The notes below the pieces were generated by a model. The model saw only the letters and a program-made list of their open reading frames with translations, was not told the DNA's origin and ran no database searches. Shown one piece after another: positions 6,327 through 24,437 of a stretch of 64,000 nt of DNA (positions within the stretch are counted from its first letter, which is position 1; each line of letters begins with the position of its first letter). The DNA is taken from NCBI RefSeq assembly GCF_001280255.1, contig NZ_LHCI01000106.1, positions 1,341,766 to 1,405,765 on the forward strand. Reading direction: 5' to 3'. Position numbers and translations under genes: made by a program. This DNA is from Thermus aquaticus (GTDB taxonomy: Bacteria; Deinococcota; Deinococci; Deinococcales; Thermaceae).

Positions 6327-6936
6327 GAGGCTGTCGTAAAAGGGTGGTATCCTTGAAGGGTGCCTTTTAGACGATGTTACCCCAGCGACCTAACCGACGA
6401 GGAGTGGGCCCTCCTGGAGCCCCTCATTCCCGCCCCCAAGCCCGGCGGCCGGCCCGCCAAGGTGTCCAGAAGAGAGATCATGAACGCCATCCTTTACGTC
6501 CTGAAGAACGGCATCCCCTGGCGAGCCATGCCCCATGACCTGCCCCACTGGTCCACCGTCTACCACTACTTTCGCCAGTGGCAGAAGGAGGGGGTGTGGG
6601 AGAAAGCGGTGCAAGCCCTGGTCCGCCGGGACCGGGATTGAGACCTTCCAGGTGCGGGGGCTTGGCCGGGTCCGGAAGGGGGTACGGGGGGTCTGGGTGC
6701 GGGAGGGGGCGGAGGTGCCGGAGATTCCGCGGGAGCGTGGGTTCAAGCCTTTACCTAAGCGGTGGGTGGTGGAGAGGACCTTTGCCTGGCTGGGGCGGAA
6801 CCGGCGTCTTGCCAAGGACTATGAGGAGAACCCTCGGGTAAGCGAGGCCTGGGTCTATCTGGGCATGCTACGATTGTTGGTGAAGCGGCTAGCCAGGGCC
6901 GCGTAACTGCCCCTGGAGGACTTTTACGACAGCCTC
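6327..6936 (+). mobile_element. Internally deleted IS5-family (IS427-group-like) element
   Basis: A 610-bp element bounded by perfect 16-bp inverted repeats, GAGGCTGTCGTAAAAG (6327-6342) and its complement (6921-6936). TA dinucleotides on both sides are consistent with a 2-bp target duplication. It encloses the two ends of an IS5-family transposase with the middle missing, so it cannot mobilise itself. Complete relatives are usually about 840-870 bp. Identical termini suggest recent mobility, possibly in trans. It inserted at the edge of a family A repeat. Confidence 0.88.
6360..6906 (+). pseudogene. IS5-family transposase, catalytic centre deleted
   Basis: Residues 1-93 (GTG start at 6360) are the N-terminal domain: [42 protein letters not shown]. 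The frame stops at 6641. A different frame then encodes the C-terminal part, [20 protein letters not shown], containing the presumed catalytic Glu of the DDE triad. The intervening region with the two catalytic Asp residues is absent. This is therefore a deletion, not a programmed frameshift. Confidence 0.88.
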
Positions 6937-15073: not shown

Positions 15074-16236
15074 GGTTTTCTAGACTGGACGCTTACCTGA
15101 GGCGGGCGGTGGAGGAGGGCTGGCTTCCCGGGGCCGTGGCCCTGGTGGCCCGGGAGGGGGAGGTGGTCTTCCAGGGGGTCTACGGCCTCCTGGACCCCGA
15201 GAGGGGCCTACCCATGCGGGAGGACGCCCTCTTCCGCCTTTACTCCATGACCAAGCCCTGGGTTTCCGCCCTGGCCCTCACCTTCGTGGAGGAGGGGGCC
15301 CTTGCCCTCCAGGACCCCCTGGAGAAGTACCTCCCAGGCTTCGCCCACCTCCAGGTGGGGCGGGAGGTGGGGGAGGAAGTGGTCTTAGAGCCCCTCAAGG
15401 CCCCCATCACCCTCTACGACCTCCTGCGCCACACGGCGGGCTTCACCTACGGGGTCTTTTTCCGCTCGCCGGTCAAGCGCCTCTACCTGGAGGCGGGGGT
15501 GGACCGGTACGACCTGGACCGGGAAACCTTCCTGGAGAGGCTTTCCCGGATTCCCCTCCGGTTCCAGCCAGGGGAGACCATGGAGTATGGCCTTTCCACC
15601 GATGTCCTGGGCCACCTCCTGGAGGCGTTCTCGGGGAAGTCCCTGGCCGAGCTCATGGAGGAGCGGGTCTTTGGGCCTCTTGGCATGAGGGACTCCGGCT
15701 TCGTGGCCAAGGACCCCGCCCGCCTAGCCCAGCCCTTCCCCAAAGACCCGGAGACCGGGCGGAGCCTCCGCCTCCTCCCCGTGGAGGGAAAGCCTCCCAG
15801 GTACGCCGGGGGCATGGGGGGTGTGGGGACGGCCTGGGACTACCTCCGCTTCCTCGAGGCCCTGCGCCTGGGGCGGGGCCTCCTCGCCCCGGCCTTTTGC
15901 CGCCTCATGACCCAGGACCACCTGGGGCCTCTGGCCTATGAGGGGATGCGCCGGGGGTCCGAGTACATGCCGGGGCCGGGGTACGGCTTCGGCCTGGGGG
16001 TGGCGGTGAGGCTTTCCGGCATGGGCCTGGCCCCGGGGAACCCCGGGGAGTGGAACTGGGCGGGCTTTGGCGGCACCTACTTCTTCGTGGACCCGGGGAT
16101 TGGGCTCACGGCCCTCCTTATGGCCCAGGCCCCCAACCTCCTCTCGGTCCTGGAGCCGGAGAGGGCCCTCCATTCCCGCTACGGGAGCCGCCTCTGGCTC
16201 ACCTTCCGCGCCCTGGTCTACGGGGCTTTGGACTGA
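15070..16236 (+). CDS. Serine hydrolase, class C beta-lactamase/esterase family
   Basis: 388-residue protein of the beta-lactamase-like serine hydrolase family (pfam Beta-lactamase type, EstB-like). Ser59-Met-Thr-Lys62 (LYSMTKPW) is the SxxK nucleophile motif. Tyr173 in MEYGLST is the likely second-motif tyrosine, and a GG-rich [10 protein letters not shown] segment lies in place of KTG. No signal peptide is seen, so it is probably cytoplasmic; an esterase is more likely than a resistance enzyme. The GTG start overlaps the DinB stop (GTGA). Its 3' end overlaps the truncated aldolase on the other strand by 19 bp. Confidence 0.88.
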
Positions 16237-16724
16237 AGGGCCCTGTCCACCGCCTCCAGGGCCTGGACCGCCTTCTGCGCCTCCAGGGGCACCACCCGGC
16301 CCCCCGCCAGGTTGTGGGTGTTCTCCAGGGCGATGAGGCCCGTGGGGGCCTGGAAGGGGCCCCGGCGGATGGCCCTCTTAAGGGCCTCGAGGTCCGGCAC
16401 CCCGCCAGGGGCGGACACGGCCCGGACCAGGGCCCCGGCCAGGAGGGCGGGGGCCCCAAGCTCGTACTCGTAGAGGTGGGCCCCCTCCGGGGCCAGGACC
16501 TCGCCTCCCCGGGGCAGGTGGAGGAGGAGGGCCACCTGGTTGGCCATGGTGCCGGAGGGGAAGAAGAGGGCCCTCTTAAAGCCCAATAGCTCGGTGGCCA
16601 GGTCCTGGAGACGGTTGACCGTGGGGTCTTCTCCGTAGACGTCGTCCCCCACCTGGGCCTCGGCCATGGCCCGGCGCATGGCCGGGGTGGGCCGGGTCAC
16701 GGTGTCGCTCCTCAGGTCTATCAC
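16218..16724 (-). pseudogene. Threonine aldolase, C-terminal half missing
   Basis: The first 145 or so residues are a clear low-specificity L-threonine aldolase: [51 protein letters not shown] and [19 protein letters not shown]. The family is about 340 residues and carries its PLP-lysine in an SKGL-type motif near residue 200. This copy ends at residue 168 with an unrelated tail read from the antisense of the neighbouring hydrolase gene, so the lysine is lost. GTG start, 4 bp after the DtxR-family gene. Very unlikely to be active. Confidence 0.85.
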
Positions 16725-19967: not shown

Positions 19968-22415
19968 TTAGGGCGAAAGGAGGAGGCGGACCCTCGTCCT
20001 TACCTCCTTTTCCCCCTGCCAGGCCCGCACCTCGAGGGGCAGGGCGAGGAGGCCCGCCAGGGGGGAGGCCCTGGCCGCCAGGGTCTGGGTGAGGGCGAGC
20101 TTCCCCACATAGACCCAGGGAGGCCCCTCGCCCACGGCCTCCAGGGCGAGAAGCCTTTCCCCCTCCAGGTAGACCTCGGCCCCCTGGGCGGGGAAGAGGG
20201 CCTCCACCCGCACCTCCACCTCTTGGCCTAAGGAGGCCCTGGGGGGCGAAAGCCTCACCTGGAAGAGGGGCCTTCCCGGGTCCACGGGTACCAGGCGGCT
20301 TTCCACCTTCCCGCCCGCCGCCACCCTGAGGGCCAGGGAGCCCTGGGCCTCCCACGGCGCCTGGAAGTGCAGGAGGACCCCTTCCTCGGTCCTCTCCCTC
20401 CGGAGAAGGGGCAGATCCAGGAGCTCCGCCTCGGCCACCTCCCGCACCAGAACCCGCCCCACCTCCCCCGGGGCCAGGGCCGCGGGCCACTCCACCCTGA
20501 GGGGCCTCGCCTCCAAAAGCCTCTCCTCGGGAACGGGGGTGAAGGTGAGGGCGAGCTCCTCCTCGGTTAGGGGAGGCAGGTTCAGGGAAAGCCCCTCCGC
20601 CCGGTAGCCCCTAGGGGCCACGGGCTCCACCCGGTAGGTTCCCGGGGGCACCACCGCCCGGTTCCCGCAGGCCACGAACACCCCCACTTCCCCCACCAGG
20701 TAGGCCCCCTGGCCCGAACCCTCGCACCGGAGGCGCACGGCCCCCGCCGGGGTGAGGGCCACCCGGTAGGGGCCTTCCCCGGGGCGGACCCGGACCTCCC
20801 CCGGCAGGGCCAGGAGGCCCGGGGGTGGGTCTATCCGCAGGGCCTCCCCCTCCCGGCGGACGTAGAGGCGGAAGCGCCCCTCGGCATCGGTGACCGCCTG
20901 GCCCCTCCTCCCCCCTACCCGGGCACCCGCTACCGGCTTCCCCAGGACCTCCACCCGCCCCTCCACTGGCGCTTCCTCGTACCCGCCCAGGGCCAGGGTA
21001 ACGGGTTCGGGCACGGGGAGGCGGAAGGCGTAGCTCCCTGCCAGGGCCAGACGAAAGTCCCCGTCGTACCGCCCTTCCAGCCTCAGGGCGTAAGGGCTAT
21101 CCCGCCACTCCAGGAAGAGAAGCGCCCTCCCCGGGCTCAGGTCCAGGCTTCCCGAAAGCGCTCCCTCCCGGTACCCCAGGCCGAGGCCAAAGGAGGCCTG
21201 GGGCAGGAGGCTCCCCCGGAAGGCCAGGGTGAAGGGGGAAAGGGGGTAGGCCAGGGCGAAGCCCAGCTCCGGCCCTCCGGCGTACCCTCCCTGAAGGGCG
21301 TAGGTGAGGTTCATCTGGGGTGTAGGGGCCCCAGAGCGACCGGAGAGGGTGCCCGTGTGGGCCATCCGCAGGGAAGGCCCCGCCGGGCCGTACCCCGCCT
21401 CGCCCCGCCACCCTCCCCAGGCCAGGCCCCCGTAGAGCCCCCCTTCGTAGCGGGCGTAGAGGTAAAGGTCCCCGTGGCGTTCCAGGCGTAAAGAGGCTTC
21501 CGAAAAGGACCGGAAGGTCCAAGGGAAGTTAGCCCCAAAGGTGTAGGTGCCGTCGGCGTAGCCCAGGGCGAGGGAGGTGGGGGAGAGGCGCAGGCGGTAG
21601 GTCTCTCCCGGCGTGTAGGTCCATTCCAGGGCCCAGGGGTAGGCCAGGGAGAGGGCGTGGGGGCCTTCCCGGTAGCCCACCTCCCCCCCCAGGGTGGGGA
21701 GCAGGCTAAGCCGCCCGCTCCAGGGCCCCGTGCGCAGGGCGAGGCGCAGAGCGTCCGTCCCCCCCAGGAACCCCACCCCCACCTCCCGGGAGAGGGGGCC
21801 CTCCAGGGAGAGGCGGAAGGCGGGAGGGCCCTGGCCCAGGCTTCCCTCCAGCCGTCCCTGGAGGGCGTAGGGGAGGGGGCTTCCCCCTTCGGGGAGGACC
21901 TGAACGAGGTAGAGGGCCCGCTTCTCCCCGAAGAGGAGGGCCAGCTTCAGGAGGCCGAAGCCAGAGAGGGAGAGCGCCACCTCTCTTTCCTCCCCCGGGG
22001 CCAGGGTGAGGCTCACAGGGCTAAGGTTCACCTCGCTCCCCTCGGCTTGGGCCAGGTGGACCCTTTCGGCCACGTTCCCCCGGTTCCGGAGGAGGAGCCG
22101 GAGACTCCCTCCGTAGACCTCCCGGGGGACTCTCGCCTCCAGGTCCCTTATGGCCTCCACCTCCACCTTCTGGCAGACCTCCGTTCCCCCCCTGGGCCTG
22201 AGGCACACCCGGTAGGAGCCCGGTGGGGCCTCCTTGGGAACCTCCACCACCACGAGAAAGGGTCCCTCCCCAGGGCTCGGCGTGAGGAGGAGGGGGAGGT
22301 CCGAGGCTACCTCCACCTCCCCAGGGGGTAGGCCCAGGAACGGGAGGACCAGAACCTCCCCGGGCCTCGCCGCCAGGGCCAGGGAGAGGAAGAGGAGGGC
22401 GAGGATGGGGCGCAT
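19968..22415 (-). CDS. Usher-like outer-membrane beta-barrel protein
   Basis: 815-residue exported protein (signal MRPILALLFLSLALAARPGE). Residues 20-175 look like two Ig/beta-sandwich domains. About 183-480 is a run of alternating aromatic/hydrophobic and polar residues with glycine-rich turns (LALGYADGTYTFGANFPWTF, YALRLEGRYDGDFRLALAGS), typical of transmembrane beta-strands. About 483-545 resembles a carboxypeptidase-regulatory/usher plug-like beta domain (VEGRVEVLGKPVAGARVGGR, TDAEGRFRL). The rest is beta-rich. Neighbours are a PapD-like chaperone and two pilin-like subunits, so an outer-membrane usher for fibre assembly fits best. Homology to FimD ushers is remote and unproven. GTG 22427 is an alternative start. 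I recognise no close named family. Confidence 0.65.
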   Translation of the reverse strand: MRPILALLFLSLALAARPGEVLVLPFLGLPPGEVEVASDLPLLLTPSPGEGPFLVVVEVPKEAPPGSYRVCLRPRGGTEVCQKVEVEAIRDLEARVPREVYGGSLRLLLRNRGNVAERVHLAQAEGSEVNLSPVSLTLAPGEEREVALSLSGFGLLKLALLFGEKRALYLVQVLPEGGSPLPYALQGRLEGSLGQGPPAFRLSLEGPLSREVGVGFLGGTDALRLALRTGPWSGRLSLLPTLGGEVGYREGPHALSLAYPWALEWTYTPGETYRLRLSPTSLALGYADGTYTFGANFPWTFRSFSEASLRLERHGDLYLYARYEGGLYGGLAWGGWRGEAGYGPAGPSLRMAHTGTLSGRSGAPTPQMNLTYALQGGYAGGPELGFALAYPLSPFTLAFRGSLLPQASFGLGLGYREGALSGSLDLSPGRALLFLEWRDSPYALRLEGRYDGDFRLALAGSYAFRLPVPEPVTLALGGYEEAPVEGRVEVLGKPVAGARVGGRRGQAVTDAEGRFRLYVRREGEALRIDPPPGLLALPGEVRVRPGEGPYRVALTPAGAVRLRCEGSGQGAYLVGEVGVFVACGNRAVVPPGTYRVEPVAPRGYRAEGLSLNLPPLTEEELALTFTPVPEERLLEARPLRVEWPAALAPGEVGRVLVREVAEAELLDLPLLRRERTEEGVLLHFQAPWEAQGSLALRVAAGGKVESRLVPVDPGRPLFQVRLSPPRASLGQEVEVRVEALFPAQGAEVYLEGERLLALEAVGEGPPWVYVGKLALTQTLAARASPLAGLLALPLEVRAWQGEKEVRTRVRLLLSP

Positions 22416-22419
22416 GGGA

Positions 22420-23022
22420 TCAGTCACCCTGGACCTCGTACGTGAGGGTGAGGGCGCCTGTGGCGGGCAGGGGGGGGAAGAGGTCGTGGGGGCTGACCTC
22501 GACCCAGTAGTAGATGTGCAAGGTGGCGGTGGTGTTCCTCCGTATGTCGGCGAGGCGCCGGTTGTAGGGGACGGCGGAGAGAAGGGTGGGCGTGGGCGCG
22601 AGGCTCGTGGCGTTTCCGGAGATGACCTGAACCATGACGTAGAGCCTCGAGGTCCAGTCCACGGGGAGGGAACCGGAAACGCCCGTCACCCGCAAGCAGA
22701 ACCTCCTCCCCGCCCCGCAAAGCGTCCCTCCCCTTATCGGGTCCCGGTTTGGGGTCCGCACCGTGCAGGCCATCCGGTACACTCCCCCGGGCGCTCCCGT
22801 CACCGCCGTGGGGAGGAAGCGCATGGGACCCGTGCCGTCCAGGAGGAGGAGGTAGGAGGCCAGGTTGGCCACGTAGTAGGGCTGTCCCGCCACGGTGGCC
22901 TGGGTGAGGGAGCCGGGGGCGGAAAAGTCGTATAGCAGGTCCGTGGCGTCGCAGTTCACGCTCTGGCCCAGGGCCTCGGGAAGGAGGAGGGCGAGGAGGA
23001 AAAGGCTCAGGGCACGGCCCAT
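22420..23022 (-). CDS. Secreted pilin-like subunit 2
   Basis: 200-residue exported protein with signal MGRALSLFLLALLLPEALGQ. The mature N-terminus (SVNCDATDLLYDFSAPG) parallels that of the first operon gene (LDATDYLFDFGD), and both continue with a V-GG/GQ-PY segment, then a SYLLLLD or AYLTFLD stretch, so they are paralogues. It has at least four mature cysteines, possibly disulfides. It overlaps the chaperone gene by 16 bp and leads into the usher-like gene. A minor or tip subunit of the proposed fibre is inferred. Confidence 0.7.
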   Translation of the reverse strand: MGRALSLFLLALLLPEALGQSVNCDATDLLYDFSAPGSLTQATVAGQPYYVANLASYLLLLDGTGPMRFLPTAVTGAPGGVYRMACTVRTPNRDPIRGGTLCGAGRRFCLRVTGVSGSLPVDWTSRLYVMVQVISGNATSLAPTPTLLSAVPYNRRLADIRRNTTATLHIYYWVEVSPHDLFPPLPATGALTLTYEVQGD

Positions 23023-23750
23023 ACGCCCTCCGCTGCGTAGCGCCCGTAGGCGCTTTCCAGGATCAGGACCACCCGGTACCGCCCTGGGGGAAGGGGCGCT
23101 TCCGGCTCCAGGGCGAGCTCCCGGTATCCCCCGGGGAAGACGGGGAGCTCGGCGATGGGGAGGCGGGCCACCTCCTTCCCCTCCCCGTCAAAGACCCGGG
23201 CCTCCCCTGTGACCCTTTGGAGGACGTTCCCGGGGTTTTCCAGCAAAAGGGGAAGGGCCTTCCCCTCGCCCCCTACCTTGGCCCGGAGGGCGGGGCGCTC
23301 CGTTCCCCTCAGGGTGAGGTAGACGGCGAGGCCCAGGGAGGGGCTGGCGGTGATCCGGAGGCCTCCCAGGCCCGTGGGCCTGGGCCCTGCGGTGAAGACC
23401 ACCAGGCAGGCCAGGGTGCCCTCGGCTCCGGGCGGGGCCTTCAGGGTGAGGCGGACTTCGGCGGTCCCCCTTGGGGGCACGGTGAAGGCCGTGGGGGTGG
23501 CGGTGAGGTGGGGGCAGAGGTTGCGCTCGGGGCTTTCCGCCACGTCCCCTTGGGGCGTGAGGGCGAAGGGCCTTAGGGCTACGCTGAGGGCTTCCTCCCG
23601 GTCCAGGCCGTTCCGCATCCGGACCACTTCTGTGACTTCTCCCCCAGGGGGCAGGACCAGCTCCAGCCGGGCGGGGGAGAGGGCGAGGTCCACCTGGGCC
23701 AGGGCCTGGGTCAGGAGGAGGCCCGTGAGGGCGACTAGGGGGCGCTTCAT
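23007..23750 (-). CDS. PapD-like periplasmic chaperone
   Basis: 247-residue secreted protein: signal MKRPLVALTGLLLTQALAQ, then an Ig-like domain starting VDLALSPARLELVLPPGGEV with a VVRMRNGLDREEALSVAL strand and the FTVPPRGTAEVRLTLKAP strand typical of archaic pilus chaperones. A second beta domain follows from about residue 130 (VYLTLRGTERPALRAKV) and ends in a PPGRYRVVLILES strand. It would fold and cap the two subunits. I chose Met at 23750, which gives a clean signal; an in-frame ATG at 23774 is the alternative. Overlaps subunit 2. Confidence 0.72.
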   Translation of the reverse strand: MKRPLVALTGLLLTQALAQVDLALSPARLELVLPPGGEVTEVVRMRNGLDREEALSVALRPFALTPQGDVAESPERNLCPHLTATPTAFTVPPRGTAEVRLTLKAPPGAEGTLACLVVFTAGPRPTGLGGLRITASPSLGLAVYLTLRGTERPALRAKVGGEGKALPLLLENPGNVLQRVTGEARVFDGEGKEVARLPIAELPVFPGGYRELALEPEAPLPPGRYRVVLILESAYGRYAAEGVWAVP

Positions 23751-23777
23751 GGTTTCGTTTCCCCTTTTAAGCATACA

Positions 23778-23807
23778 GGCCGCTTCCGGCCTGGGCAGGA
23801 AGCGGCC
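23778..23807 (-). promoter_or_regulatory. 10-bp hairpin between subunit 1 and chaperone genes
   Basis: GGCCGCTTCC and GGAAGCGGCC form a perfect 10-bp stem with a 10-nt loop in the 75-bp gap after the first subunit gene. No U-tract follows on the minus strand. A processing/stability or partial-attenuation element that raises subunit 1 over downstream genes is plausible. Confidence 0.65.
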
Positions 23808-23825
23808 ACGGAAAACTCCTAAGGC

Positions 23826-24437
23826 CTAGGGCGAGGTGAGGAGGAGGTTGACGGTGATCTGTTGGTTGATGCCCGCGAGAGGAATATCGTCGGTGATGTC
23901 CATGGTGAAGAGGTAGTAGAGCTTGTAGACGCTCCTCCCCTGGCCGCCGCTACCGGCGTTGAAGAGGGTGAGAGGGCTTGCGGCCGTGATGGGGGTGGGG
24001 GTGGTGGTCCAGGAGGCCCCCTTGCCGCTCACCTTCTCGGCGAAGACCTTGACCCGGCCGTTGCCCAGGGTGAGGGTCCCGCTGATGGAGTCGATCTTCA
24101 CCGTCCACTGAGCTCGGTTGGTGCGGACGGTCACCGTCCCGTAGTCCCCGAGGTCGTTCTCGGCCGCATCCCTGATGGACGTGGGGGCGAAGTCCTGGGT
24201 GCCGCTAGCGGTGTCCAGGAAGGTCAGGTAGGCGGCCCAGGAGGCCTTGGTGTAGGGAGTTCCACCTATGGTAACCGTACCCGATGCGCTGGCATCGCCA
24301 AAGTCGAACAGGTAGTCGGTGGCGTCCAGCGTGAGCTGGAGGACGGAGGGGATGTTCACGGTGACCTTGGGGCTAGCGGTCTGCGCCAGGCTCAGGCTTG
24401 CCAGAAGGGCCATGAGGGCAACCAGCTTCCTTTTCAT
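23826..24437 (-). CDS. Secreted pilin-like subunit 1 (probable major subunit)
   Basis: 203-residue exported protein: signal MKRKLVALMALLASLSLAQT, then KVTVNIPSVLQLTLDATDYL, a beta-rich body without cysteines, and a C-terminal IPLAGINQQITVNLLLTS strand. AGGAGGTG precedes the ATG. First gene of the four-gene operon, separated from the others by the hairpin at 23778-23807, as expected for a highly expressed structural subunit. Paralogous to subunit 2. I know no characterised homologue. Spore-coat-U-like/CsuA-type fibre subunits are the closest functional analogy. Confidence 0.72.
   Translation of the reverse strand: MKRKLVALMALLASLSLAQTASPKVTVNIPSVLQLTLDATDYLFDFGDASASGTVTIGGTPYTKASWAAYLTFLDTASGTQDFAPTSIRDAAENDLGDYGTVTVRTNRAQWTVKIDSISGTLTLGNGRVKVFAEKVSGKGASWTTTPTPITAASPLTLFNAGSGGQGRSVYKLYYLFTMDITDDIPLAGINQQITVNLLLTSP

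Follow-up and report, generated by a model that had tools for sequence, protein, structure and literature searches.

Four adjacent genes of Thermus aquaticus probably encode a chaperone-usher-like fibre system, belonging to a divergent class that extends across the phylum Deinococcota. The genes lie in a window of 64,000 nucleotides (the whole stretch of DNA analysed), on its minus strand, where four intact open reading frames run from position 24437 down to 19968 as a tight operon: subunit A, a chaperone, subunit B and an usher-like protein (Table 1). An earlier note on this DNA had proposed a chaperone-usher locus from the sequence, and we find the proposal supported by predicted folds, profile homology and conserved gene neighbourhoods. 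The adjacency, order and intactness of the four genes were borne out by our check of the reading frames, as was the claimed overlap, the chaperone and subunit B genes sharing 16 nt. Signal-like N-terminal sequences are present on all four products, again as claimed. The motif described as (L/C)DATD-L(F/Y)DF reads DATDYLFDF in one subunit and CDATDLLYDF in the other, and the paralogy of the two subunits holds, in that subunit A finds subunit B genes by tblastn (E down to ~3e-9; identity ~29%). Scanned against Pfam and NCBIfam, the four proteins showed nothing above cut-off, and the PF00577, PapC_N, PapC_C, PapD, Fimbrial and SCPU models had no match in them.

Table 1 Features of the chaperone-usher-like locus (window coordinates)
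Feature	Position	Strand	Remarks
Subunit A, probable major fibre subunit	23826..24437	-	203 aa; signal peptide ~18 aa
Donor-strand-like segment KVTVNIPSVL of mature subunit A	24339..24368	-	Alternating V7-x-V9-x-I11 kept in relatives; absent from subunit B
Possible attenuator hairpin between the genes for subunit A and the chaperone	23778..23807	-	10-bp G+C-rich stem
PapD/WxLIP-like periplasmic chaperone	23007..23774	-	255 aa
Overlap (16 nt) of the genes for the chaperone and subunit B	23007..23022	-	Common to nearly all relatives of the window's subtype
Subunit B, probable tip subunit	22420..23022	-	200 aa; cysteines present, donor strand absent
Usher-like outer-membrane protein	19968..22415	-	815 aa from ATG; 819 aa from upstream GTG
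N-terminal tandem Ig-like unit, homologous to the chaperone	21891..22370	-	hhalign 95.9% without signal peptides
Predicted 24-stranded beta-barrel without plug insertion	21006..21884	-	AlphaFold2, VIA-align, composition
C-terminal region: CooC_C/carboxypeptidase-regulatory-like and further Ig-like domains, probably periplasmic	19971..20975	-	

The usher-like protein is predicted to form a 24-stranded barrel

The product of the gene at 19968 had been expected to contain a membrane barrel. Consistent with this expectation, its AlphaFold2 model (mean predicted local distance difference test score (pLDDT) 85.0, predicted template modelling score (pTM) 0.44; alignment of 6 sequences) has exactly 24 strands in mature residues 169–452, and ushers are its best matches. 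Foldseek placed PapC (1.6e-9) and FimD (2.7e-9) near the top of a list that also holds long immunoglobulin (Ig)-repeat proteins, matching the other domains of the protein. In VIA-align, ranks 1–6 were all FimD or PapC (Z 13.5–14.3), led by FimD (Z 14.3 over 272 residues, 5.5 Å). Gly, Tyr and Trp are abundant in the barrel region and Lys is absent, a composition that fits the expectation for an outer-membrane barrel; strand amphipathicity did not separate barrel strands from Ig strands.

The regions flanking the predicted barrel are of a different kind. About 160 N-terminal residues are homologous to the chaperone encoded in the same operon (Table 1), and neither a TcfC domain nor a match to a PapC_N-type N-terminal domain was found in the protein. 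The domain following the barrel shows a weak likeness, below cut-off, to CooC_C of the alternative ushers (E 0.002, 18.5 of 29 bits), and longer usher-like relatives match SdrD_B and carboxypeptidase-regulatory domains. Since EcpC, an accepted alternative usher of E. coli, also escapes PF00577, the missing PF00577 match alone does not argue against an usher.

The chaperone is related to PapD-like and WxLIP proteins at the profile level

When the PDB was searched with a broad family profile of the chaperone, the Gram-positive WxL-interacting protein (WxLIP) was matched with an E of 8e-7, and EcpB weakly. The single chaperone sequence found nothing there, and narrow profiles gave weak or unconvincing matches. 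Compared by hhalign with the E. coli pilus chaperones, the window's chaperone reached 92% with signal peptides and 76% without them, against 0.2–6% and at most 0.4%, respectively, for the controls; its profile reaches both EcpB and EcpE. It falls below the Pfam cut-offs, as EcpB does for PapD_N. R36, in the first strand, is invariant in the neighbourhood subtype to which the window belongs and aligns with the conserved Arg of the E. coli chaperones. These comparisons of sequence profiles support homology to PapD-like pilus chaperones, in agreement with the PapD-like assignment that the earlier note had made. WxLIP has been predicted to complete the beta-sandwich of its WxL partner by a strand (PMC10599100). 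Both kinds of relative, WxLIP and PapD-like, thus suggest strand complementation for the window's chaperone as well.

Subunit A carries a donor-strand-like segment that subunit B lacks

AlphaFold2 predicted a beta-sandwich for subunit A (pLDDT 81.8, pTM 0.78), with mature residues 1–15 free and without secondary structure. In the archaic Csu pilus, V8, L10 and I12 of CsuA/B are required for polymerisation, which was abolished by their mutation (PMC4654587), and the spacing of V7, V9 and I11 in subunit A resembles that of this donor strand. The Csu pilus was also the top VIA-align match of the subunit A model (7zl4, Z 6.1), and chaperone-usher pilins occupied 11 of the 15 top rows, the best matches lying at Z 5–6. 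It is this enrichment of pilins, not the height of Z, that we find persuasive for the predicted fold. The subunits had been expected to have incomplete Ig folds with a donor strand; the predicted sandwich and free N-terminal strand of subunit A agree with this, and the Z values and the weak Foldseek result leave that expectation only partly supported. Mature subunit B begins at the CDATD motif in the relatives aligned and has no donor-strand segment, as would be the case for a tip subunit, which it probably is. Subunit A is probably the major fibre subunit. In other subtypes, too, the N-terminus tends to be shorter in the subunit encoded downstream of the chaperone than in those encoded upstream.

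The 68 nt around the hairpin that separates the subunit A and chaperone genes fold with -29.5 kcal/mol (z -2.4), and a G+C-rich hairpin occupies the equivalent place in all nine loci folded (9/9; whole-stretch z -0.7 to -4.4). Attenuators after major pilin genes are common, and the hairpin is possibly an attenuator that keeps subunit A above the products of the assembly genes. No sigma-70-like promoter was found at the locus.

The genes are conserved together across Deinococcota

The phylum set comprised 111 Deinococcota genomes from 31 genera, with no genus in it as large as Deinococcus; PF00577 and TcfC each matched 0 of these 111 genomes, and SCPU matches were confined to one, negatives that do not extend to Deinococcus. 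That one genome (locus L084, G052:C134) showed no usher-like match, and its SCPU match may stem from a genuine archaic system or from mis-binning of the contig. Homologues found with the chaperone profile are present in 57 of the 111 genomes and in 21 of the 31 genera, and usher-like relatives, some of them partial, in 15 of the 50 Thermaceae genomes. Intact Thermaceae loci encode subunit A, chaperone, subunit B and usher-like protein in that order; among the named carriers are Thermus tenuipuniceus, T. caliditerrae, T. altitudinis, T. composti and T. arciformis. Several neighbourhood subtypes exist, most having at least one subunit gene before the chaperone gene and a small one after it, together with a protein of ~780–1084 aa. 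The phylum has 66 usher-like genes of full length; 61 of them have a chaperone gene within 3.5 kb, and four of the five usher-like genes without one start less than 500 bases from a contig end. Together with the constant order in intact loci, this linkage is what had been anticipated for genes conserved as a unit. Deinococcus plasmids carry the same four-gene cassette, annotated throughout as hypothetical protein, and the family profiles match the cassette proteins with E values of 4e-16 to 2e-186. These plasmids were found with a longer usher-like relative as query; the window's chaperone had no match in the plasmid collection.

Several further observations concern individual loci. The genome of the window holds a second, more divergent set (L072:1-4055; contig C106:1-4055), consisting of a 268-aa chaperone, a 778-aa usher-like protein and a 171-aa subunit, with an additional partial subunit copy at the contig edge. 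A gene for a BTAD-like regulator adjoins seven loci of other subtypes (L032, L033, L073, L074, L087, L090 and L105), and the regulator near the Deinococcus cassette carries a BTAD annotation; the window's subtype has no such gene. In two loci (L022:6456-6818 and L024:5467-5802), secreted proteins of 111–120 aa with a VxIPP/IRIPP N-terminal motif precede subunit A and are possibly extra minor subunits. The usher-like gene is broken, truncated or a remnant in four Thermaceae loci (L021, L028, L030 and L031), which suggests decay of the system in some lineages.

Alternative readings of the locus

Several results weigh against a chaperone-usher-like fibre system. In VIA-align, non-usher barrels come close behind the ushers (a siderophore receptor at Z 13.2, the OprD family at 12.1–12.8), and the usher model was built on 6 sequences, at a pTM of 0.44. 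The predicted barrel has no plug domain. Its longest inter-strand loops are ~10 residues, which leaves no room for an inserted plug, and the usher-plug-like region that the earlier note had seen in the protein was not confirmed. For subunit A, Z values as modest as 5–6 can reflect shared arrangement only, and Foldseek gave no match at E <= 0.001. When profiles were compared, the usher-like protein did not match the ushers of E. coli, nor did the subunits match its pilins, so the usher and subunit links rest on predicted structure; the likeness of the chaperone is one of sequence profiles.

We weighed three other readings, of which the first two appear unlikely to about the same degree. The locus might encode a WxL-like surface complex, in which the chaperone stays on both subunits and the role of the barrel is limited to their anchoring or export, without a polymer. 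Among solved structures, the chaperone profile matches WxLIP best by sequence, and one conserved partner accompanied by a small and a larger protein resembles a WxL cluster. WxLIP is proposed to remain bound to WxL on the Gram-positive surface, and completion of a partner beta-sandwich by a strand is proposed for both proteins (PMC10599100). By contrast with WxLIP, which acts at the surface and ends in a transmembrane helix, the window's chaperone has no transmembrane helix at its C-terminus. WxL clusters are characterized by a WxLIP-like protein with a transmembrane anchor and by WxL domains; here the paired Trp-x-Leu motif is absent from both subunits. As far as is generally known, the WxL cluster has no outer-membrane barrel and hence no counterpart of the usher-like protein. 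A free donor-like strand on subunit A and none on subunit B would be superfluous in a permanent complex, and the pilins among the best structural matches of subunit A also speak against it.

The second alternative, that the locus is an ordinary diverged member of the archaic (sigma) chaperone-usher class, draws on the statement that archaic systems occur in Deinococcus-Thermus (PMC4654587) and on the Csu pilus heading the structural matches of subunit A. Archaic systems combine SCPU subunits with a PF00577 usher, whereas none of the four proteins matches either model, and the chaperone and usher diverge from those of Csu. The absence of PF00577 from the phylum set, and of an usher-like match from its lone SCPU genome, argues against archaic membership, as do the post-barrel domain, with its weak likeness to the alternative-type CooC_C, and the plug-less predicted barrel.

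Still less probably, the 815-aa protein would be a general exporter of the outer membrane, or a porin, that carries Ig-like domains and is accompanied by two exported proteins; its likeness to ushers would be that of any large barrel. The near-equal scores of non-usher barrels fit this reading. Against it stand the 24 strands, typical of ushers, the top ranks held by ushers, and the constant presence nearby of genes for a PapD/WxLIP-like chaperone and for paralogous subunits resembling pilins. We also considered and dropped a simple porin and an adjacency of the four genes by chance.

Relation to known classes and a model of assembly

Compared with the classical Fim and Pap systems, the locus shares the set of subunit, tip, chaperone and usher genes, a predicted usher barrel of 24 strands with FimD and PapC as best matches, and a chaperone that is tandem-Ig by profile, with R36 aligned to the conserved Arg. 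It differs in that its proteins match none of PF00577, PapC_N, PapC_C, PapD and Fimbrial, and in that its usher has no predicted plug and a chaperone-like N-terminus. With the alternative systems (CS1 and the E. coli common pilus, Ecp), it shares the CooC_C-like post-barrel domain, an usher outside PF00577, as EcpC is, and a chaperone profile that reaches EcpB and EcpE. Here the differences are the lack of TcfC in all 111 genomes, the failure to find EcpB_C and an unlike N-terminal region of the usher; of the CooC_C and TcfC pair that marks ushers of the alternative class, CooC_C is below cut-off and TcfC absent. We do not assign the locus to the archaic, alternative or classical class, because defining features of each, among the plug, the N-terminal domain and the family models, were looked for and not found. 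There is about an even chance that it represents a separate, Deinococcota-specific chaperone-usher class, with a plug-less usher that docks its substrates through a chaperone-like tandem-Ig N-terminus.

For the chaperone-usher-like fibre system, we propose the following route of assembly. Sec would export subunits A and B to the periplasm, where the PapD/WxLIP-like chaperone would keep them and lend a beta-strand to each incomplete Ig-like fold. The chaperone-subunit complexes would then dock on the barrel, via either its chaperone-like N-terminal tandem-Ig unit or its C-terminal domains. Subunit B, without a donor strand, would go first and become the tip; copies of subunit A would pass the pore next, the N-terminal strand of each being inserted into the preceding subunit by donor-strand exchange. 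The hairpin after the subunit A gene would probably lower the expression of the downstream assembly genes. We infer that the product is a fibre, which may serve in adhesion.

General reports place archaic chaperone-usher systems in Deinococcus-Thermus (PMC4654587, PMC8304980), and the Thermus filaments described in the papers we found are type IV pili (PMC7203116). Our literature search found no description of a chaperone-usher-like system of this kind in Thermus. The claim that no such system has been described in Thermus agrees with the literature searched, but is limited by the archaic systems already stated for Deinococcus-Thermus (PMC4654587): what is new is probably a divergent, phylum-wide variant with an unusual usher architecture, the chaperone-usher kind itself being known. 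If the locus does represent a separate class with a plug-less usher, fibre assembly needs neither a plug nor the classical N-terminal domain, and Gram-negative pilus chaperones are linked with Gram-positive WxLIP proteins. The locus would bear on plug-free usher gating and on the relationship between WxLIP and PapD-like proteins, and a thermostable version would favour structural work. A second fibre class throughout a deep-branching diderm phylum, missed by current family models, would also inform the origin of chaperone-usher systems.

Other features of the window

Two further genes of the window appear incomplete. A threonine-aldolase-like gene at 16218-16724 has ~44% of the length of its relatives (~168 versus 337–339 aa) and appears truncated, and a short transposase-like open reading frame at 6360-6641 is probably the remnant of an insertion sequence.

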